DNA from: a virus
Strand: one strand, 5' to 3'
Length of the DNA: 20,815 nt
Virus record (IMG/VR): IMGVR_UViG_3300043543_000674
Span: 1 to 20,815 of that record
Positions 122 through 20,815 of this stretch are shown piece by piece (position 1 is the stretch's first letter; every line of letters starts with the position of its first letter). Both the position numbers and the translations under genes were made by a program. The notes under the pieces were generated by a model that did no database searches, was not told the DNA's origin, and was given only the letters and a program-made list of their open reading frames with translations.

Positions 122-1060
122 ATGGCACGCGCGCAAGGGGCGCGGGCGCAGATGGCGCTCGCCTTCGAGACCACCTATGGCACGCCGCCGGCGAGCGGCT
201 ACACGCGAATGCCGTTCGCCAGCACGACACTCGGCGCGGAACAACCGCTGTTGAACTCCGAACTGCTTGGATACGGCCGCGATCCCCTGGCGCCGATCAA
301 GGATGCCGTGAAGGTGGATGGCGACGTGGTCGTGCCGATCGACGCCGAGGCCTTCGGCTTCTGGCTGAAGGCTGCCTTCGGAGATCCCAACACGACCGGC
401 GCGGGGCCCTGGACTCATGAGTTCCAGTCCGGCAGTTGGATCTTGCCGAGCCTCTCGATCGAGACCGGCATGCCCGAGGTGCCGCGCTTTGCGATGTATT
501 CGGGCTGTGTGCTCGATCAGCTCACCTGGCAGATGCAGCGCTCGGGGCTGCTGACAGCGACCGCGCGGCTGGTGGCGCAGGGCGAGACGGTCGGCGCCAC
601 GACCGGCGCCGGCACACCCGCCGCGTTGGAGCTCAAGCGCTTCGGCCATTTCAACGGGGCGATCAGCCGCAACGGGTCGGCGCTCGGCAACATCGTCTCC
701 GCCGAGATCACCTATGCCAACAATCTCGACCGGATCGAGACCATTCGCGCGGATGGGCGCATCGATGGCGCGGACCCGTCCATCGCCGCACTCACCAGCC
801 GGATCGAGGTGCGCTTCGCCGATCAGACGCTGGTAAGCCAAGCGATTAATGGCGAGCCCTGCGAGCTGGAGTTCGCCTACAGCCCGCCGTCGGGAGAGAG
901 CTTCACCTTCACAGTTCATGCCGTCTTTCTGCCGCGCCCGCGCATCGAAATCCAGGGACCCCAGGGCGTGCAGGCAACCTTCGACTGGCAGGCCGCCAAG
1001 GACGGCACGCTGGGCCGCATGTGCACCGCCACCCTCGTCAACGACATCGAGAGCTATTGA
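122..1060 (+). CDS. Phage tail tube protein (major tail protein)
   Basis: This 312-residue protein fits the size and sequence style of the large Phage_tube_2 tail tube family: an acidic, beta-rich protein with repeated short Gly/Thr/Ser stretches and no membrane segment. It would stack as rings to form the tail tube through which DNA passes. The ATG at 122 follows a purine-rich GACGAGG about 8 bases upstream. It sits just before the chaperone frameshift pair and the tape measure, the usual place for the major tail protein (GTA g9 position). The family call comes from recognition plus synteny, not a search. The TGA is followed after 3 bases by the next ATG, so the two genes are probably translationally coupled. 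Confidence 0.8.
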   Translation: MARAQGARAQMALAFETTYGTPPASGYTRMPFASTTLGAEQPLLNSELLGYGRDPLAPIKDAVKVDGDVVVPIDAEAFGFWLKAAFGDPNTTGAGPWTHEFQSGSWILPSLSIETGMPEVPRFAMYSGCVLDQLTWQMQRSGLLTATARLVAQGETVGATTGAGTPAALELKRFGHFNGAISRNGSALGNIVSAEITYANNLDRIETIRADGRIDGADPSIAALTSRIEVRFADQTLVSQAINGEPCELEFAYSPPSGESFTFTVHAVFLPRPRIEIQGPQGVQATFDWQAAKDGTLGRMCTATLVNDIESY

Positions 1061-1063
1061 TCC

Positions 1064-1501
1064 ATGATCAGACTGGACCTTTCCCGCGAGCCTAGCTGGC
1101 TCGACCTCGGCCATGGCGTGCGCTTGCGCGCGCTTCCGCTCACCACCGCGCTGATGGTGGCCTCCCGTAGCGATGCCCAGGTGGAGGCGCTGCCCGAGAG
1201 CGCCACCGACGAAGAGCGCGCCGTCGTCTTCGCCAAGGCCATCGCCCGGCGCGCGGTGACGGATTGGGACGGCGTCGGCGATGCGCAAGGTGATCCGGTG
1301 CCAGTGTCGCCCGAGGGCATCGACGCACTGCTCGATGTCTGGCCGATCTTCGAGGCCTTCCAGCTCGCCTATGTGGCCAAGGGCCTGATGCTGGAACAGG
1401 AAAAAAACGCCTCTGCGCTCTCGCCGAGTGGCACTTCGGCGGGGGCGATCGCTACTGCGAGGCCTGTCCGCAAGCGTGCCCGGACTGCCCCGCGCGCCTG
1501 A
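1064..1501 (+). CDS. Tail assembly chaperone, short (gpG-like) product
   Basis: This 145-residue zero-frame product lies between tail tube and tape measure, where lambda-like phages encode gpG and GTAs encode g10. Such proteins bind the tape measure during tail assembly and are absent from the mature tail. Residues 1-113 look like a folded domain (hydrophobic stretch LLDVWPIFEAFQLAYVAKGLML). Residues 115-145 are a low-complexity Ser/Ala/Arg tail, as expected for the part of a gpG-like protein downstream of a frameshift site. A slippery A AAA AAC lies at 1402-1408. The start ATG is 3 bases after the tube stop. The chaperone role is inferred from position and the frameshift architecture. Confidence 0.7.
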   Translation: MIRLDLSREPSWLDLGHGVRLRALPLTTALMVASRSDAQVEALPESATDEERAVVFAKAIARRAVTDWDGVGDAQGDPVPVSPEGIDALLDVWPIFEAFQLAYVAKGLMLEQEKNASALSPSGTSAGAIATARPVRKRARTAPRA

Positions 1502-1731
1502 ACCGCCCCGCAACCTATGAAGGCTGGCAGGTCTGGGATCTGGCGGGCCGGCTCGGCGGGCAGCTCCGCGCGAGCTCCGGCGCGGTGCTCGGGCTCGACA
1601 TGGGCGCGGCACTCGCCATGGCGCAGGCGCTGGGCATCGACACGCTGGTTGCCGCCGAACTGCTGCCGGAGATCGAGGCGGTGATGGTGCGCAAGCTCAA
1701 CGAACGGATCGAGGTGTCGAAGGATGGCTGA
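1064..1731 (+). CDS. Tail assembly chaperone, long (gpGT-like) -1 frameshift product
   Basis: A -1 slip at A AAA AAC (1402-1408) joins residues 1-113 to a second frame that continues from CGC at 1408 to TGA at 1729-1731, giving about 222 residues. The second frame is open from 1294, yet has no ATG, GTG or TTG before 1408, and its first ATG is near 1600, so most of it can only be reached by a frameshift. It encodes a four-cysteine cluster, YCEACPQACPDCP (C-x2-C-x3-C-x2-C, possibly zinc binding), then an ordered stretch beginning TYEGWQVWDLAGRLGG. The stop overlaps the tape measure ATG at 1724. A sequencing error in the run of seven A would also link the frames, but the site type and position fit programmed slippage. 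Confidence 0.7.
1402..1444 (+). promoter_or_regulatory. Programmed -1 frameshift signal
   Basis: The heptamer A AAA AAC is correctly phased: zero-frame codons GAA AAA AAC at 1400-1408. A hairpin follows, with CGCCGA at 1422-1427 pairing with TCGGCG at 1436-1441. The stem can be extended outward by U-G and C-G pairs to about 1419/1444, leaving a spacer of roughly 10 bases after the slippery site. This is the classical layout of a slippery site plus stimulatory stem-loop. Folding energy was not calculated. Confidence 0.65.
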
Positions 1732-3901
1732 GAAGCGCGTGTCGGTCCGGCTCGCGGCCGTCGGGGGCCAACAGGTTCGCGCCGAGCTCGAGGGCGTGGG
1801 CGAGGCCGGCAAGCGCGGGTTCGGTCGTCTCAGCCAGGAGATGGAAGCCGCCAATGCGCGCCTAGGCGCCTTCTCGCGCCGGGTGAAGGTCGCGGCCGCG
1901 GCCGCTGTTGCGGCGGCCGCCGCGGCAGGCGTGGCGATGATCCGCTCAGGCCTGCAGGTCGTGGACGCCCAGACCAAGCTCGCCGCCTCGCTCGGCACCA
2001 CCACGGAAAGCGTGCAGGTGCTTGCCCGCGCCGGCGACCTTGCCGGCGTCTCCATGGGCGAGATCGAGCAGGCCACGCTGCAGCTCACGCGGCGGCTTGC
2101 CCAGGCGGCACAAGGGTCCGGGCCGGCGGTGAAGGCGCTTGAGCGGCTTCGCCTCACGGCAGAGGAGCTGCGCCGTCTGCCGCTCGACCAGCGCATCGCC
2201 GCCATTCAGGAGGCGCTCGCGACCTATGTGCCTGAGGCCGAGCGCGCGGCGGTGGCCTCGCAGCTCTTCGGCGATCGGGCCGGCCTCGTGTTCAGCCGGA
2301 TCGACACGGCCACCCTGCGCCAGGCGGCCGCGGATGTGCGCGACTTCGGTGTTGCGGTCTCCGACCAGGATGCTCGCCAGATCGAGCGCACCAATGACGC
2401 GCTGTCGCGGCTTGGGCTGATCTGGCGTGGGCTGTCGAACCAGCTGGCGGTCGCAGCGGCGCCGGCGCTGGAGGCCGTCGCCAATGCCATGGCGGCACTC
2501 GCCCGCACCACCGGGCCGCTCGGGCTGGCGATCAAGGCGCTGTTCGACAACATCGGCAGGCTGGCAACCTATGCCGCCACCTTCGCCGCCTTCATGGCCG
2601 GGCGCTGGGTGGCGGGGATGGTCGCTGCGGCCGTCTCCGTGCGTGGCCTCGCCACGGCGCTCGTCCTCCTGCGCGGCGCGCTGATCCGCACCGGCATCGG
2701 CGCGCTGATCGTGGCGGCGGGCGAGCTTATCTACCAGTTCGGCCGCCTCGTGCGCGGCGCCGGCGGCTTCGGCGAAGCCATGCGCCTCATGGGCGACGTC
2801 GCGCGCGAGGTCTGGGAGCGTATCGGCATGGGTGGCGAGACTCTCGGGCTCGTGCTGCGCTCGGTCTTCGCCCGGATCGAGGCGCTCTGGCTCACGGTCC
2901 TGTCCACCCTCCAGAAGGGCTGGGCCGATTTTCTGCACCGCGTCGCGGCGGCTGCCCGCCACGTTCCCGGACTCGACGAGACCGCGCTGGCGCTCGGCAA
3001 CAGCGCGATCCGAGCGGGCTCGGCCTACTACGAGCTCGCCGCCGCGGCCGATGCGGCCAGGACCAAGGTGGACGATCTGGCGCAATCGGCGCGCGACACG
3101 GCAACCGCCATGACCGCGCCGCTGTCATCCATCGCCGCCTTGCGGGCCGCGATGCGGGATGCCTCCGATGATTCCGCGGCAGACATGCAGCGCGCCACCG
3201 ACGCGGCCGCGCGCTTCAACGAGGCGATCGAGTCGGCCGGCCACAGCGCCACGGCCGCGAAGCCAAAGGTCAAGGAAGCACCCGAAGCGGCCAAGACGGG
3301 CTGGGAGGCGGCACTCGCCGCGCTGCGGGACTATGCCGACAAGGCGAAGGAGGTCGGCAAGGAGGTTGGCGATGCCCTCACCCGTGCCTTCAAGGGCATG
3401 GAGGACGCCATCGTCAAGTTCGTCACCACCGGCAAGCTCGAGTTCCGGACGCTTGTCGATTCGATCGTTGCCGACCTGATCCGCATTCAGCTACGCAGGC
3501 ACCTTCTGGGCCCGCTCGCGAACTGGCTCGGCGGCCTGTTCGGTGGCTCGGGCGGTGGGCTCTTCGCGGGCCTCTTTCATGAGGGCGGCCTCGTCACCGC
3601 CGCCGGTGGCATGACGCGCCGGCCGATGCCTGCGCTCGCCTTCGCCCATGCCCCGCGCATGCATCGCGGCGGCATGATGCTCCGGCCCGACGAGGTGCCG
3701 GCCATCCTGCAGATCGGCGAGCGCGTGCTGTCGCGGCGCAAGGTGGCCGCGCTTCGTCGGGACCGTGAGGCGCGCCGCGAGCCGCCGCTGGTCCTGAACT
3801 TCAACATCACGACGCCCGACGCCGGCTCGTTCCGCCGCTCGCAGAGCCAGCTCGTGGCGGAGATGGCGTCGGCCATGGAACGGGCGAGGCGCAACCTGTG
3901 A
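1724..3901 (+). CDS. Phage tail tape measure protein
   Basis: This 725-residue, Ala-rich helical protein sets tail length and is threaded through the tube. Residues 1-60 are helical, followed by an extreme Ala run (about 55-75, VAAAAAVAAAAAAGV). Hydrophobic helices occur around 260-350, consistent with the membrane-interacting segment of tape measures. The C-terminal part from about 540, with GWEAALAALRDYADKAKEV and a later IRIQLRRHLLGPLANWLGG stretch, resembles the lambda tape measure C-terminal domain. At about 0.15 nm per residue the tail would be near 110 nm, an estimate from the general ruler rule. The ATG overlaps the chaperone stop by 8 bases and follows GAGGTG at 1711-1716. The 3' end overlaps the next start in GTGA. 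Confidence 0.9.
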   Translation: MAEKRVSVRLAAVGGQQVRAELEGVGEAGKRGFGRLSQEMEAANARLGAFSRRVKVAAAAAVAAAAAAGVAMIRSGLQVVDAQTKLAASLGTTTESVQVLARAGDLAGVSMGEIEQATLQLTRRLAQAAQGSGPAVKALERLRLTAEELRRLPLDQRIAAIQEALATYVPEAERAAVASQLFGDRAGLVFSRIDTATLRQAAADVRDFGVAVSDQDARQIERTNDALSRLGLIWRGLSNQLAVAAAPALEAVANAMAALARTTGPLGLAIKALFDNIGRLATYAATFAAFMAGRWVAGMVAAAVSVRGLATALVLLRGALIRTGIGALIVAAGELIYQFGRLVRGAGGFGEAMRLMGDVAREVWERIGMGGETLGLVLRSVFARIEALWLTVLSTLQKGWADFLHRVAAAARHVPGLDETALALGNSAIRAGSAYYELAAAADAARTKVDDLAQSARDTATAMTAPLSSIAALRAAMRDASDDSAADMQRATDAAARFNEAIESAGHSATAAKPKVKEAPEAAKTGWEAALAALRDYADKAKEVGKEVGDALTRAFKGMEDAIVKFVTTGKLEFRTLVDSIVADLIRIQLRRHLLGPLANWLGGLFGGSGGGLFAGLFHEGGLVTAAGGMTRRPMPALAFAHAPRMHRGGMMLRPDEVPAILQIGERVLSRRKVAALRRDREARREPPLVLNFNITTPDAGSFRRSQSQLVAEMASAMERARRNL

Positions 3902-5934: not shown

Positions 5935-6627
5935 CTAATCCTTCGGCCAATCATCGTTGTCGAAGTAACGCCACAGCCGGATTGTGCGGATAGGCAGGTT
6001 GATGTCTGAGAACGTTTCGCTCAGGAAATCCAGATAGTAGCGTGCGGTATCGTTCGTGAGCGACGCAACGTGCGCCATCTGTGTGGTGTTCAGCAGTGGC
6101 TTGTATTTGCTGGGTCGCGCCTGAAAGCTCATATGGACGATGCGGTTCCTGAAGATCACGAGCCGGTCGATATCCTTCACAAGTCGTTCCTCAAGGACAT
6201 GTCCACTCGCCCGCTCAATCTGGCCGAGCACGTACGCCCGCTTTTTTGCGAACGAGCCTTTGCGTAGCAGCGCAGCAATGGGCCGAGCACTTCTGCCCCG
6301 GAAGTAACACCACGGAGGTTCGCCTGCGCATTCCGAGGGCATCGTATCCGTCATCAACTCGTAAATTGTAGCCAGCGCATCGTTCGTCACTGCTTCGATC
6401 GTAGCTACACCCATGACGATTGCCGCGCGGGCATAAATTCCGCGGATGGTCTTGTTTGCTTCCGTCGCGGCGCGGCCCTGCAGATACATTACATCGCGGA
6501 GCAAATCGCCTGACTTCGGCTCAAGCCAGGACCGCATTTCTTCCTTGGCTAGTCGCCGCGCGATCTCTGCCAGATCGGGCGGCCATTGCAGGGGTGGGGG
6601 CGACCTCTTCGCTCTGCCATCATCCAT
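5935..6627 (-). CDS. Small protein with HEPN-type R-x4-H motif, candidate RNase/toxin
   Basis: I do not recognise a named family for this 230-residue protein. It is predicted mostly helical, with a hydrophobic helix ARAAIVMGVATIEAVTNDAL at about 66-85 and the motif FRNRIVH at 159-165, giving R160-x4-H165. HEPN-domain RNases in toxin-antitoxin, abortive-infection and CRISPR-associated proteins use this R-x4-6-H pattern at the end of a four-helix bundle, which fits its placement here. The HEPN call and RNase activity are therefore inferred. It lies 29 bases downstream of the PD-(D/E)XK-like gene on the same strand, likely one transcript, opposite to the tail genes. Base composition is lower in G+C than its surroundings (30 of 60 bases in the line at 6361). 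The start is uncertain because the AGGA before the ATG is too close to be a normal ribosome site. Confidence 0.6.
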   Translation of the reverse strand: MDDGRAKRSPPPLQWPPDLAEIARRLAKEEMRSWLEPKSGDLLRDVMYLQGRAATEANKTIRGIYARAAIVMGVATIEAVTNDALATIYELMTDTMPSECAGEPPWCYFRGRSARPIAALLRKGSFAKKRAYVLGQIERASGHVLEERLVKDIDRLVIFRNRIVHMSFQARPSKYKPLLNTTQMAHVASLTNDTARYYLDFLSETFSDINLPIRTIRLWRYFDNDDWPKD

Positions 6628-6656
6628 TCCTGATAGGTCTTCGAGTGCGTGGCGCG

Positions 6657-7535
6657 TCAGACAGGTGTGACGTCGTAACCGCTGTCGACCAGCTTGACAT
6701 CGTAGTATACACCCCTGAGCCGAAAGCCTTCGGGCAAAGGCATGCCGGCGTGCGGGTTAGGAGCGAGCTGGAAATCGCCGCCCATCTCGCCGGGACGGTT
6801 GGCTGCGTCTACGCGAGAGCACAGGAGAGCGCTCAGACCTTTGTACTCCTTGCGCTGGAACACGCCGGTCGTGACCTTCGCGCCTGATGCCTTCGTAACG
6901 GCATCGCGGAAATGATAGCCGGACCCTACCGCCTGTGCAGTCTGGCGATCTATGACAATGTAAGGTGCGCCGACGGTATATCCGGCCTGCAGGATGCGCG
7001 GCGGGTCGGTGTCCGCATGATCGAAGGGGATTTCGCGCGGGTTGAGTGCAATTACAAACGCGTCCTTGTCCGAGACGATGCCTTTCTTCAGCCAGTTCGA
7101 GTATTGACGCTCGTATTTCTCAGAAATGCTGTTCAAGTAGCGCAGGATGATCTTTTCCTGGGGAACCTCGTAGACCTGTCCTGGAGCGGGGGCGGCAATG
7201 TAGTCCGGGGAATCCGGCGCGCCGCAAGTCGGCGATGTGGCCTCAAACCAGATGCGTTGACCCTTGTAAATGATACCGACATCGGGGCCCGGCTTAGGGC
7301 AGGTCACCTCGTATCCGGCTAAGATCAACGAGACGGTCAAATACATTTCCCAATAGCGCGCATCGAAATTGGTGCGCAGCTCCGTGCGGAATTCATCGTC
7401 GGCGTGTCGTTCGAAAAATATCCATAGGTACTCGCAGTGCCAACGCGCGGATTTCAGCGGGCCGCTGACGGCATCCCGTATGTTGACGTAACCTGGATCG
7501 GAAGCGTCACCGTCTGTGAACAAGGGCGTTGCCAT
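6657..7535 (-). CDS. PD-(D/E)XK-like protein of unknown function
   Basis: This 292-residue protein has a region resembling the restriction-endonuclease fold. It shows E63 in RYWEMYLTVSLILAGYEV, then GPDVGII with D85, then RIWFEAT with E98-A-T100. Spacing and hydrophobic pattern fit the helix, D, E-x-K core, but the usual lysine is replaced by threonine, so catalysis is unproven; variants with a displaced lysine exist in the superfamily. No known domain is recognised in residues 110-292. An AGGGG lies about 10 bases before the ATG. It is the upstream gene of a pair with the HEPN-motif protein. Together they look like a horizontally acquired nuclease or toxin cargo, with lower G+C than the tail genes. 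A toxin-antitoxin or abortive-infection role is inference. Confidence 0.5.
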   Translation of the reverse strand: MATPLFTDGDASDPGYVNIRDAVSGPLKSARWHCEYLWIFFERHADDEFRTELRTNFDARYWEMYLTVSLILAGYEVTCPKPGPDVGIIYKGQRIWFEATSPTCGAPDSPDYIAAPAPGQVYEVPQEKIILRYLNSISEKYERQYSNWLKKGIVSDKDAFVIALNPREIPFDHADTDPPRILQAGYTVGAPYIVIDRQTAQAVGSGYHFRDAVTKASGAKVTTGVFQRKEYKGLSALLCSRVDAANRPGEMGGDFQLAPNPHAGMPLPEGFRLRGVYYDVKLVDSGYDVTPV

Positions 7536-7588
7536 TTGAGTTTGGCCCCTTCTACGAACGCAATATGCGAAACGACAAGAAGTTGGTC

Positions 7589-15896: not shown

Positions 15897-18800
15897 CTAC
15901 TCCTTTTCGAAGCCATGTGAGGTGAACTTCAAGGTTCGGCTGTTCTCGGTCACGGTTCTAACGACGTTTTCCGGAACGCCATCTGGGGCAAGAGCCTCGA
16001 TCTCCATTGTCACAGTCACCGTTGCGCCGACGAGACCGGAGAGATGCGCGATCACCTCTTCAGCAATCCGTCCTGCGTCCCTGCCAACGCGGGCTGCGTC
16101 CAGTTTGACCGTTCCATAGTAGCGTCTTGGCTTGGCAGTGACTGCACTGTCGGTGCTGAAAGCATCACTCACTTGTTCGCCTTGCTCGCCAAGACCAGAT
16201 TCGCCCGCTGTACCGGCGGTCGTTGTATCGGCGCCCGCAGCGGCGGAGGCTTGGTCGGCCTCTTGCTGTCGCAACGCGACCTCGGGCCTGACCACGAGGC
16301 CGTCGCTGCCTTCGTGCACTGTGTCGACGCGTTGCCCGCAACGGAGGCCGCGGTAGCGCCCCCTTGCCTCGTCATAGGCATCCGCGTAGGCGAAGGACTC
16401 CTGACGCCAAAGCAGCAACCCCAGCCCATCCTGGATCGCCGCAGCAAGGACCGAGGGGTCACGGAGACGCGGCAGGTACACATACCGTGCGAAATCCTCG
16501 CTCAGCTGCCGAACGGCGACATGGTCGCCGCGCCAAAGCGGAATGCGATCGAGCTCCATCCGCAGGCGAGTGCCGGCAAGCGAAGGCACCAGTAACTCTT
16601 CGGAGCGCAGCTTCTTTGTAACGCGGACAGCGAGACTCTCTTGCCCTGAAAGTCGATAGGCCTGCCACTCAATAGGAGACTGCGGTGTTTTCTGGATCGG
16701 CACGAGGAGCCACTGATAGGCCTCCGGCAAACGCGCGATGACTGCCCCATCTGCCGCCTTCAGTTGCGTCTCTGCTTGACGCACTTGATGCGGGTCGAGG
16801 TTAAGCTCGTTCTTTTCGGCCAGAATTGAAGACCACGCGAGATATCGACGAATGGCTTCGTCGAGGTCCTGCAAGCGCGCTTGGTCGACCGCGAGAAAGA
16901 CGAGGGTGTTCTGAAAGAGACGCGGTGTGTTACCGCGGCTTTGCAGAATTGCCGCTGCCGCCGCTTGCGCCTTGTTGTTTGCTTCCCTGCTGTACGGATG
17001 TTCGGTGCCCAAGATGACCAATCGCGCATCCATGTCATCAGGCACGTCCGCACCTGACTGCGGCATTGGATGGACACGCTTGAAGTCTCCCATCGTCCGA
17101 AGATCGGAACGGACGCGCTGATTGATCTGTTCGACGACCTTGTCGGTGTCGCGCTTGTATTGTTCTGCCCGATCTTCGGCCAGCTTGGTGACGGTCGGCT
17201 GCGTCGAATACCAGTATCGCGGACCATCCTGATAGAGGAAGGTCGCGGAAGCGCTCAACCGCCGCAATGCATCGCCGAAGACGGCGGGCGACTCGCCCGG
17301 CATGACGCAACCAAGCCTGATGCGCCGGTCTTCGATGCCGCGGTTGGCTGCCGAAGCCATCGGGGCCGAACCAAGATAGACAGTGCGTGCCACGCGCCGT
17401 GTCGCGGCGAACTTGCCCAAGTTCGGCACCTCGCCGTCGATTCGCAAAGGCAAGGCATTCGGCCCATCGACATCCTTCTCGATGATGGGCTTCCATTGAT
17501 CCGACAGATACCGCGTGAGCTCGTCGCGCACGCGCGGATCGTCGATCGGGATGTTGGCCGGCATGATGAGCGGGTTGCGATCGCCTTTCTCCCACAAGCT
17601 GTGGATCACTGCCGCCATCAGCCGCAGCACACCGCGCGTGCGCTGGAACTTCGCCAGCGTCGACCAGTCTGTGTAGAGCCGGTCGAAGACTTCTGGGTGG
17701 ATCGGATAAGCCGCGCGCAGTCGACGCTCGTAGTCGGAATCGCTGCATTCCGGCGGAAATTCCTGATGTTGAACTCGGTAGAGATCGGCGAACGCGCGCG
17801 CGACGTTGTCACGCGCGGTGAACTGCTCCCGGTCGATCAAGGGCTCGAAGAGCCGCCGCCGGACAATCTCGAACCCCTCCTCGGTGCTTGCCGGAGCCCA
17901 TGAGGATTCGACGCGCCCGATGACGTTCTTGAGACGCGCTAACGCTGCCCGACCGCGAAGACCTCCCACCTCTTCGTCGTCGGCCTGGGCATGCGGCGAA
18001 GCCGCCGTGTCCGACGCCGGCAAGCTGATCACCAGCAGGCACTGCTTTGCAAGTTTCGCCGACTCGGTGAGGGCCTGCGCAAATGTGAAATGCGTCTCGA
18101 AACTGCCGGCAGGCAGGTCGGCGTCGTCATGCAGTTGGCGAGCGTACGCGACCCATTCGTCGATCAGAATGAGACATGGTCCGTATTCGTTCATCAGCTC
18201 GCGCAGCACGTCGCCCGGGCTTGTCGCGCGCTCATCGTCCTGCCGGACCTTCTCGAAAGCCGCTCTGCCGCCGAGTTGCCAGGCAAGCTCGCCCCAAAGC
18301 GTCTTGACGACCGTGCCATCCGACTTGACCGAAGGATTGCCGGGCGAAATCTTGTTTCCGACCAGAACCACCCGCCTGACGTTCGGTGGAAGCTGCTCGA
18401 TTCCGGCTTCGCCCATCAGCGCATCGACGCCGAGCAGTTCGCCTGGCGCTGCGCCTGAGAACAGATGATAAAGCGCCAGCATCGAGTGGGTCTTGCCGCC
18501 GCCGAAATTGGTCTGAAGCTGAACCACCGGATCGCCGCCTTGACCGGCGAGGCGCCGCATCGCGCCGACAAGCAAGTCCCTGAGGCTTTGAGTGAGAAAG
18601 GTTCGGCGAAAGAATTCGGTCGGTTTGCGATACTCGTCGGTTCCCTCGCCGAGATGGACCTGCCAAAGGTCCGCCGCGAACTCGGCTTGGCTGTAGCGTC
18701 CGCTCGCCACATCCTTGTGCGGCGTCACGACCTCCCGCCAGGGCTTGATGGTCCCAGTGACCTGGCTCTCAATGCTGCCGCCGCCACGTCGGCGCTCGCT

Positions 18801-19244
18801 GCGCGCCTGCTCCTCGAAGATCAGCCGGCGCAGCTCCATCTTCATGCGATTGACGTCGTCTGCCTGCGGCGCGGAGACGGCGGTGAGCAGCCGCGCGATG
18901 GAATCGAGCGCGCGATCGGCATCGTCGCTGGAGAAGGCGCCCTGATGGGCCCAGTTGTTCCGGTGGCCGCGGATCTCGCTCACAAGGCTCCGTTCGGCGT
19001 GCCCGAGCGTCTTGCGGAACACCTCGTTCCACGTCTCCCACATCAGCTTGAGGAGGCCGGCAGTGTCCCATTCCGCAATCGGCTTCTTGGCCAGCATCGG
19101 GTCTTCGGCGAAGCGGCGGACGGTCTCCATGTTGATGGTGCGCGCCCTGACCGCCTCCTGCACCTCCCGCTCGACGAAAGGGGCGAGGCCGGACCGAAGC
19201 AGATCGAGCGCCTTGCCGACACGTTCCTGATTGGTCATCGCCAT
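15897..19244 (-). CDS. HEPN-DUF499 P-loop ATPase, defence-associated
   Basis: This 1,115-residue protein has an N-terminal Swt1-type HEPN domain (residues 1-125) with HRNNWAHQ: R95-N-x3-H100, the R-x4-H RNase pattern. A DUF499-type ATPase follows, with Walker A NFGGGKTH at 246-253 and Walker B CLILIDEW at 357-364 (D362, E363). The C-terminal 450 residues include a low-complexity Ala/Gly/Thr linker (about 1000-1030) and a final beta-rich domain. DUF499 proteins are found next to DUF1156 methyltransferases in defence islands. Nucleic-acid remodelling with an RNase toxin domain is a reasonable inference. The ATG at 19244 follows GAGGTGAG overlapping the methyltransferase stop, 8 bases away, so the two are one operon. 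Confidence 0.88.
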   Translation of the reverse strand: MAMTNQERVGKALDLLRSGLAPFVEREVQEAVRARTINMETVRRFAEDPMLAKKPIAEWDTAGLLKLMWETWNEVFRKTLGHAERSLVSEIRGHRNNWAHQGAFSSDDADRALDSIARLLTAVSAPQADDVNRMKMELRRLIFEEQARSERRRGGGSIESQVTGTIKPWREVVTPHKDVASGRYSQAEFAADLWQVHLGEGTDEYRKPTEFFRRTFLTQSLRDLLVGAMRRLAGQGGDPVVQLQTNFGGGKTHSMLALYHLFSGAAPGELLGVDALMGEAGIEQLPPNVRRVVLVGNKISPGNPSVKSDGTVVKTLWGELAWQLGGRAAFEKVRQDDERATSPGDVLRELMNEYGPCLILIDEWVAYARQLHDDADLPAGSFETHFTFAQALTESAKLAKQCLLVISLPASDTAASPHAQADDEEVGGLRGRAALARLKNVIGRVESSWAPASTEEGFEIVRRRLFEPLIDREQFTARDNVARAFADLYRVQHQEFPPECSDSDYERRLRAAYPIHPEVFDRLYTDWSTLAKFQRTRGVLRLMAAVIHSLWEKGDRNPLIMPANIPIDDPRVRDELTRYLSDQWKPIIEKDVDGPNALPLRIDGEVPNLGKFAATRRVARTVYLGSAPMASAANRGIEDRRIRLGCVMPGESPAVFGDALRRLSASATFLYQDGPRYWYSTQPTVTKLAEDRAEQYKRDTDKVVEQINQRVRSDLRTMGDFKRVHPMPQSGADVPDDMDARLVILGTEHPYSREANNKAQAAAAAILQSRGNTPRLFQNTLVFLAVDQARLQDLDEAIRRYLAWSSILAEKNELNLDPHQVRQAETQLKAADGAVIARLPEAYQWLLVPIQKTPQSPIEWQAYRLSGQESLAVRVTKKLRSEELLVPSLAGTRLRMELDRIPLWRGDHVAVRQLSEDFARYVYLPRLRDPSVLAAAIQDGLGLLLWRQESFAYADAYDEARGRYRGLRCGQRVDTVHEGSDGLVVRPEVALRQQEADQASAAAGADTTTAGTAGESGLGEQGEQVSDAFSTDSAVTAKPRRYYGTVKLDAARVGRDAGRIAEEVIAHLSGLVGATVTVTMEIEALAPDGVPENVVRTVTENSRTLKFTSHGFEKE

Positions 19245-19252
19245 GGCTCACC

Positions 19253-20815
19253 TCACGCAAACATTTCGGCCTGGGCCGGGCTCCCGACGGCGGCGGCTTC
19301 GCGCGCAAGGCGCATGATCTCGGGCCAGCTCTGAACGAGGCCGTTGTAGGACAGCGCTTCGGCCGCGCGCTTCTTGCGCTCGGCGATCACGTATAGGCGG
19401 TAGGCAAGCTCGCGGGCGATCTCGGCCTTCGCGCCGAGCTTCGCCACCAGCGATGCGGCGGCGCTTTCGCCGCCCGCTTCCAGCGCGCGGATCAGGTGAT
19501 GCACGATCTCCCAGACCGTGAGGCGCGGATCGGTGGCAGGGTCCCAATCCGGTTGAAGCTCCTGGGGCTTGAGGAGGCGAACCTTGCCGCCCTTCGAGAC
19601 CGCGATCTTCGCCTCGACGAGACCCGACACCGCCGTGTTCTTGGCGCGGGCGAGCACGTCCGCGACGCCGAACTCGCCGTCGTCGAAGCCGTACTGTTCG
19701 AACCAGGCGATGGCGAAGCGGCTGTCCGCGTCGAAATCGCCTTCCTGCTCGGCCAGCACTTCGTCGAGCACCTGGTTGATGAGCGCGAGCGCTTCGCGCA
19801 CGGAGAGCTGCTTACCCTCTGCATCGACGACCTTCGCGTAGCGCGTGAAAATCGCCATGCCGGGGCCGATGGCGGCTTGCGCGAGATCGACCGGCGCGAT
19901 GTTGCCGCGCTGGAGTTGGGCAAGCGCGGCGGGGAGCTCCGCCTTCAGGGCGTTGAGAAAGTCGCGGCGCGTCGCGGTTGCTGCATTCTCCGCACGTGGG
20001 CGGCAGACGAGGACGATCGAGGATGCGAGGGCGGCTACGTTCTTCTTCAGGTTGCCCGTATACTCCGTACGCATTGGCCAAGTGCCGCTGATGCCGAAGC
20101 CAGCACGGATGACGGCATCGAGGAAGGTCTCCCAACCGGTGCTCGCTGTACCGTTGTTGCCGTCGGTCTCAGACTGCTTGAAGGCGTAGTAGATGGTGGT
20201 CGGGAATCCTGGGTGGGCCTGTTCGGCGAGGCGGTGCATGGCCTCCGTCATACCGTCGAGGAAAAACTTTTCTGCCGCCTCTTTACTGCCGTGCCGATAG
20301 GGCGTCGCAACCAGTTCTTCGGCTTTGGGCACGGCCATGGTGCCGAACAGGTCCGGTAAAACAGGTCGTAACGTCCGGCGCAGCCAGACGTAAAAGAAAT
20401 CGGACAGATCGGCGTAGCCAATGTTGTCGTAGTATGGAGGATCAGTGGAAACAAGTTTGTCAGCGCTCATGTTCTGCGTTGCAGCGTCGGCTGGAACAGC
20501 AAACCCATCTGAGAAAATCCCAAGATCGTTAATCATTTCGGCCGCTTGCTCAATTCCAAGCAAAACGTTGCCCGAGGACGTGCTAAACGGGTTGGCTTCA
20601 GCGAAGTCCCACACCATAGGAAGCGCTTGGCGACCAAATGTGGAAACAATGCCATGTCGAGTCTGATGCCAAGCGCACAGTGAGGACCAATAATTGGCGC
20701 CCTTGTCCACCGCGAACGCCAAGTACACCCCCACCGCCTCCGCATACGCCGTCGCGCCGGTGCCGCCGTCGGCGAGCGGTTTGCCGTCGTCGGGCAGGCC
20801 GGCGGCGATGGCGTC
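19253..20815 (-). CDS. DUF1156-type adenine-specific DNA methyltransferase (partial, N-terminus outside the window)
   Basis: The frame is open from the right edge to TGA at 19253-19255, giving 520 residues. Residues continue upstream of any local start (GATAYAEAVGVYLAFAVDKG runs from the edge), so the gene begins beyond 20815. The catalytic motif IV is DPPYYDNI (coded by 20420-20443), characteristic of N6-adenine methyltransferases, followed by LSDFFYVWLRR, typical of DUF1156 enzymes. The AdoMet-binding motif and the DUF1156 domain were not seen and may lie in the missing part. It would modify host DNA as the self-marking arm of a restriction-like defence. It is translated just ahead of the HEPN-DUF499 gene and probably coupled to it. 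The helicase or nuclease partners often found with such pairs would be outside this window. Confidence 0.85.
   Translation of the reverse strand, partial: DAIAAGLPDDGKPLADGGTGATAYAEAVGVYLAFAVDKGANYWSSLCAWHQTRHGIVSTFGRQALPMVWDFAEANPFSTSSGNVLLGIEQAAEMINDLGIFSDGFAVPADAATQNMSADKLVSTDPPYYDNIGYADLSDFFYVWLRRTLRPVLPDLFGTMAVPKAEELVATPYRHGSKEAAEKFFLDGMTEAMHRLAEQAHPGFPTTIYYAFKQSETDGNNGTASTGWETFLDAVIRAGFGISGTWPMRTEYTGNLKKNVAALASSIVLVCRPRAENAATATRRDFLNALKAELPAALAQLQRGNIAPVDLAQAAIGPGMAIFTRYAKVVDAEGKQLSVREALALINQVLDEVLAEQEGDFDADSRFAIAWFEQYGFDDGEFGVADVLARAKNTAVSGLVEAKIAVSKGGKVRLLKPQELQPDWDPATDPRLTVWEIVHHLIRALEAGGESAAASLVAKLGAKAEIARELAYRLYVIAERKKRAAEALSYNGLVQSWPEIMRLAREAAAVGSPAQAEMFA

Follow-up and report, generated by a model that had tools for sequence, protein, structure and literature searches.

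How is a reading frame without a start codon of its own translated when it lies between two tail genes of a phage? This question is raised by a virus record of 20,815 bases, analysed here at full length (the window). The original prediction held that a programmed -1 frameshift extends a tail assembly chaperone into this second frame, after the manner of gpG and gpGT of phage lambda. Our analysis of the sequence points the same way: we put at about 95% the probability that this phage makes a longer tail chaperone by a -1 slip between its tail tube and tape measure genes. The features on which the argument turns are listed below.

122 to 1060, plus strand: tail tube protein, Phage_tube_2 (PF18906, E 4e-58)
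1064 to 1501, plus strand: G, the zero-frame tail assembly chaperone, 145 aa (phrog_313, E 8e-23)
1402 to 1408, plus strand: slippery heptamer A AAA AAC, in -1 phase, read directly from the sequence
1408 to 1731, plus strand: T, the -1 frame extension (open frame and predicted domain)
1416 to 1447, plus strand: hairpin, 1416-1428 paired with 1435-1447, loop 1429-1434
1456 to 1488, plus strand: Cys4 cluster C-x2-C-x3-C-x2-C (T residues 18, 21, 25 and 28)
1576 to 1719, plus strand: DUF7697 region, T residues 58-105 (PF24752, E 6e-26)
1724 to 3901, plus strand: tail tape measure protein (phrog_8462, E 6e-146; Tape_meas_lam_C)

Two overlapping frames between the tube and tape measure genes

The genes follow one another in the order tube, G, T and tape measure, with the overlapping G and T frames in the middle and the tape measure gene sharing its first 8 nt with the end of T. 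The phrog_313 family that identifies G is also matched by 45 of 46 of its relatives. G matched no Pfam or NCBIfam model, neither G nor T gave a credible match in a sequence search against solved structures, and Rfam had no match at the frameshift site.

A run of seven A residues (1401-1407) is followed by C, and the zero frame of G reads GAA AAA AAC at 1400-1408; the heptamer at 1402-1408 is therefore correctly placed for a slip into the -1 frame. No stop interrupts that frame between 1294 and the TGA that ends at 1731. The first ATG, GTG or TTG in it is the GTG at 1585, the next candidate start being the ATG at 1600, and the base composition typical of codon positions in coding sequence falls in the -1 frame from 1408 on. 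Joining G up to 1408 with T yields a GT fusion of 222 aa. Thus far the window agrees with the original prediction, which had described a correctly phased heptamer followed by a stem-loop and a second frame lacking a usable start. On its own, the heptamer is weak evidence: the window holds one copy against 0.32 expected, and 25 of 100 shuffled windows also contain it. The weight rests on the relatives.

We propose that two tail assembly chaperones would be made from a single start. The majority of ribosomes would produce G and stop at 1501, while a minority, probably stalled by the hairpin, would slip back one base at 1402-1408 and read the -1 frame to 1731, giving GT. In lambda, the partner of gpG is the tape measure protein and that of the T part of gpGT is the tail tube protein, with a ratio near 30 to 1 between the two products (PMC5009743). 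The lambda-like gene arrangement suggests a lambda-like job; the slipping with its rate and product ratio, the chaperone roles and the binding partners are inferred. By analogy, tape measure protein would be coated by G, while a small number of GT molecules would use their T part to recruit tail tube subunits. The T domain would start at the slip and bring with it an invariant, probably metal-binding Cys4 cluster. One published result counts against the proposed mechanism: in E. coli, A_AAA_AAC slips less than A_AAA_AAG (PMC5009743). A weaker site would be compatible with the presence of a hairpin and with a low wanted ratio.

Conservation of the slip site and hairpin among relatives

A scan with the T sequence yielded a first set of 80 loci each from viruses and bacteria, and those bacterial loci that carry a name belong largely to Rhodobacterales. 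AAAAAAC is found at the same place and in the same phase in 156 of these 160 loci, nearly always in the context GAAAAAAACG. This alignment-based scan returned mostly close loci; divergent loci came from using the T sequences of Methylobacterium, a Nostoc phage and RcKemmy as queries. The resulting set comprises 82 distinct rows including the window, of which 55 carry AAAAAAC (counting L252, which has eight A and fused frames), 22 GGGAAAC and 3 AAAAAAA, while one has no heptamer (L286) and one is cut by a contig end (L335). The match begins a few residues late in L271 and L334, and L277 and L318 have an additional chance heptamer upstream. That the same site stays slippery although its letters have changed to G GGA AAC or A AAA AAA argues against both sequencing error and transcriptional slippage.

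Codons were counted in 199 loci that had been picked for having a heptamer. The slip reads GAA AAA AAC in 176 of them, GAG GGA AAC in 20 and GAA AAA AAA in 3, whereas local codon usage predicts that Glu-Lys-Asn would be spelled GAA AAA AAC only 6.6% of the time. As a separate observation, the second slip codon in these heptamer-selected loci is AAC, or AAA in three cases, and never AAG, in contrast to the most efficient site in E. coli; this may reflect differing tRNA behaviour in Alphaproteobacteria.

The frames around the site also carry information. A -1-frame stop stands immediately before the heptamer in L037, L038, L090 and L170 and one codon further upstream in L163, L263 and L265, so that in these seven loci T can be reached only by slipping. 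The zero frame ends almost directly after the slip in L120, L146, L262, L279, L340, L342 and L343, from which it follows that G does not need its C-terminal tail. Among the findings that would speak against it, the original prediction had named homologues with an independent start before the Cys motif and homologues with the two frames already fused. Of the 199 relatives, 186 have no usable T start in the interval that runs from 30 codons upstream of the slip up to the first Cys. Fused frames do occur, in L112 (near 2489) and L252 (near 1501), where eight A make G and T one continuous frame; the two-frame layout is otherwise kept in the 156 first-set loci. These two fusions could be sequencing errors, decayed prophages or a real fusion-only variant. 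Among the remaining exceptions, L100 has six A, L029 reads AGAAAAC, L286 lacks a clear heptamer, L142 contains masked bases and reads as one frame, and L133 differs in its upstream context. Errors, prophage decay or genuine variation could account for the exceptional loci, which are too few to alter the verdict.

The hairpin stem, of 13 pairs, begins 7 nt after the heptamer. Folding of 1409-1468 gives a z of -2.8, and the median over 49 non-redundant relatives is about -2.9 (mononucleotide shuffles). Over 48 non-redundant relatives, 86.9% of stem cells can pair, compared with 43-54% when the partner strand is slid. The covariation score was matched by 6 of 500 shuffles, with double changes at three pairs only, and we regard the apparent covariation of the stem as modest. 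Synonymous variation lends the predicted hairpin support that is independent of covariation: across the slip and the greater part of the stem it falls to 0.23-0.33 of what is expected, stands at 0.46 at the stem end, and is back at 0.64-0.75 just past it. We considered whether dual coding alone could cause this dip and rejected the idea, because about 0.7 is recovered while both frames are still open. A second drop, to 0.35-0.49 of expectation, occurs at 1639-1697, towards the C-terminus of T and a short way upstream of where the tape measure gene begins; we found no cause for it.

The T domain, its cysteines and alternative explanations

AlphaFold2, given 58 divergent sequences, predicts T residues 1-108, from the slip onward, as one confident domain (pLDDT 93.8, pTM 0.85); an earlier run with 26 close sequences had produced a poor model (pLDDT 60). 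The structured domain of the original prediction is borne out to that extent. In a Foldseek search of viral predicted structures, most of the named matches at the top end were chaperones of the tape measure or of tail assembly, with probability up to 1.0, a best E of 0.02 and a TM of about 0.55. Against the PDB, and in a second look with VIA, the best E was 2 or Z 3.3, and no solved structure matches well. The predicted fold of T thus resembles known T-type tape measure chaperones, by matches that are weak in E-value.

Existing family models cover only part of this domain. DUF7697 (residues 58-105) and phrog_11212 (residues 54-107) cover the C-terminal half of T and have no assigned function, DUF1799 matches relatives of T weakly (best E 8e-5), and all three models are without the N-terminal Cys4 half. 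Variovorax phage VarioGold has a DUF1799 gene positioned between those for its tail chaperone and its tape measure protein (PMC9658991). No paper on DUF7697 was found in the literature searched. The present results give DUF7697 and phrog_11212 a likely identity, as the C-terminal half of a tail chaperone domain that is produced by frameshifting, and explain why gene callers lose the best conserved part of T.

That part contains the cysteines. Eight columns of T are invariant in the 58 divergent sequences: K1, W9, G14, Y17 and the four Cys. The spacing between the Cys pairs is variable, as is common to many metal sites, and the second pair is more loosely spaced in a few distant relatives. Zn_ribbon_6 was matched by two relatives only (E 0.018 at best). 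From the pattern of conservation, the cluster is a probable binding site for a metal such as zinc. Whether T is a zinc-binding domain, such that GT would need the metal to fold or to hold tube subunits, we judge an even bet; if so, tail assembly would depend on a metal site present only in the frameshifted molecules. Nothing retrieved from the literature searched looked as though it described a tail chaperone with a zinc site, and both the invariant Cys4 cluster and the identity of DUF7697 seem to be undescribed there.

Three other explanations for the two frames were weighed. T could be a separate gene within the -1 frame, starting at GTG 1585 or ATG 1600. Gene callers choose such starts, as in the annotation of Nostoc phage Nsp-JY21, where the T gene begins downstream of the Cys cluster, and the short DUF7697 and phrog_11212 models imply the same. 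However, the Cys4 cluster lies upstream of every usable T start, so T cannot be made whole alone; either start would halve the domain predicted from residue 1 and leave out its best conserved part, and the slip site is conserved nonetheless. We consider a separate T gene extremely unlikely. Transcriptional slippage, in which the polymerase stutters on the A run and mRNAs with an altered number of A join G and T, fares little better and is very improbable: seven A are long enough for it in principle and are retained in most relatives, but the 20 relatives with GAG GGA AAC, the RcKemmy type included, have no long homopolymer at this site. Moreover, polymerase slippage requires neither a hairpin nor exact zero-frame phase, yet both are kept.

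The apparent frameshift might also be a sequencing error or the mark of a decayed gene, given that homopolymers are error-prone and that the two frames run as one in L112, in L252 and in L142, which is partly masked. This we regard as having almost no chance of being right, since the two-frame layout recurs across separate assemblies and isolates in 156 of 160 loci and is spelled with other letters elsewhere. Ribosomal frameshifting of the lambda gpG/gpGT kind, as originally predicted, is instead supported by the conserved slip and phase, the changed letters, the synonymous constraint and the gene order, and further by the missing start, the predicted T fold and the joined coding sequences of RcKemmy-type phages.

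Comparison with known systems

The cluster had been called GTA-like. This part of the original prediction stands for the tail-tip genes only: the window shares the tail-tip families DUF2460, Phage_BR0599 and GTA_TIM with RcGTA, but the RcGTA_tape model scores 29.8 against a cut-off of 220, head genes lie outside the window, and the sequence, a contig of viral origin, carries genes for phage lysis and for defence. Within the tail-tip module, 5935-9245 holds three minus-strand ORFs, one without a family match, one PD-T7-5-like and one a DEDDh exonuclease with BRCT. The stretch 8613-9245, next to these ORFs, repeats the N-terminal ~200 residues of the GTA_TIM gene (9309-12863) in blocks that are spaced 696 nt apart and are about 70-88% identical at the DNA level; 5935-9245 is possibly a cargo insertion with a diverged partial duplicate. 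Behind the lysis genes, 15897-20815 (minus strand) encodes HmaC (HEPN_Swt1 and DUF499 ATPase) and the C-terminal part of an HmaB methylase, an Hma-type defence system that runs past the window end.

Lambda shares with this locus the gene order, a -1 slip near the end of G, a T without a product of its own and a tape measure gene next in line. It differs in slipping on G GGA AAG and in a T without the Cys4 cluster, and no sequence similarity to gpG or gpT could be detected (hhalign gave probabilities of 0.1-0.8% against the single lambda sequences). Acinetobacter phage Loki (gp12/gp13) has an AAAAAAC slip, a joined coding sequence and a T-type fold match, but its slip lies right at the G stop and its T is without the Cys4 cluster, which is absent from the T of F20 as well.

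The closest counterparts are in the Rhodobacter phages RcKemmy, RcKai and their relatives, where genes 15 and 16 are homologous to G and T and occupy the same position. Their records give a G gene and a joined, frameshifted coding sequence; the Cys4 cluster and hairpin are present, whereas the slip is G GGA AAC and T is about 55% identical. The expectation that annotation would miss the extension therefore holds for Nsp-JY21 and the short family models and fails for these phages, which annotate the joined sequence correctly. In a publication devoted to R. capsulatus phages, the frameshift is described as usual (PMC8601537). The mechanism is already known, and this locus is another G/GT frameshift chaperone of the lambda gpG/gpGT kind. 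Its Cys4 cluster, which is invariant here and which the examined T proteins of lambda, Loki and F20 do not have, makes the idea of a metal-dependent T domain directly testable.
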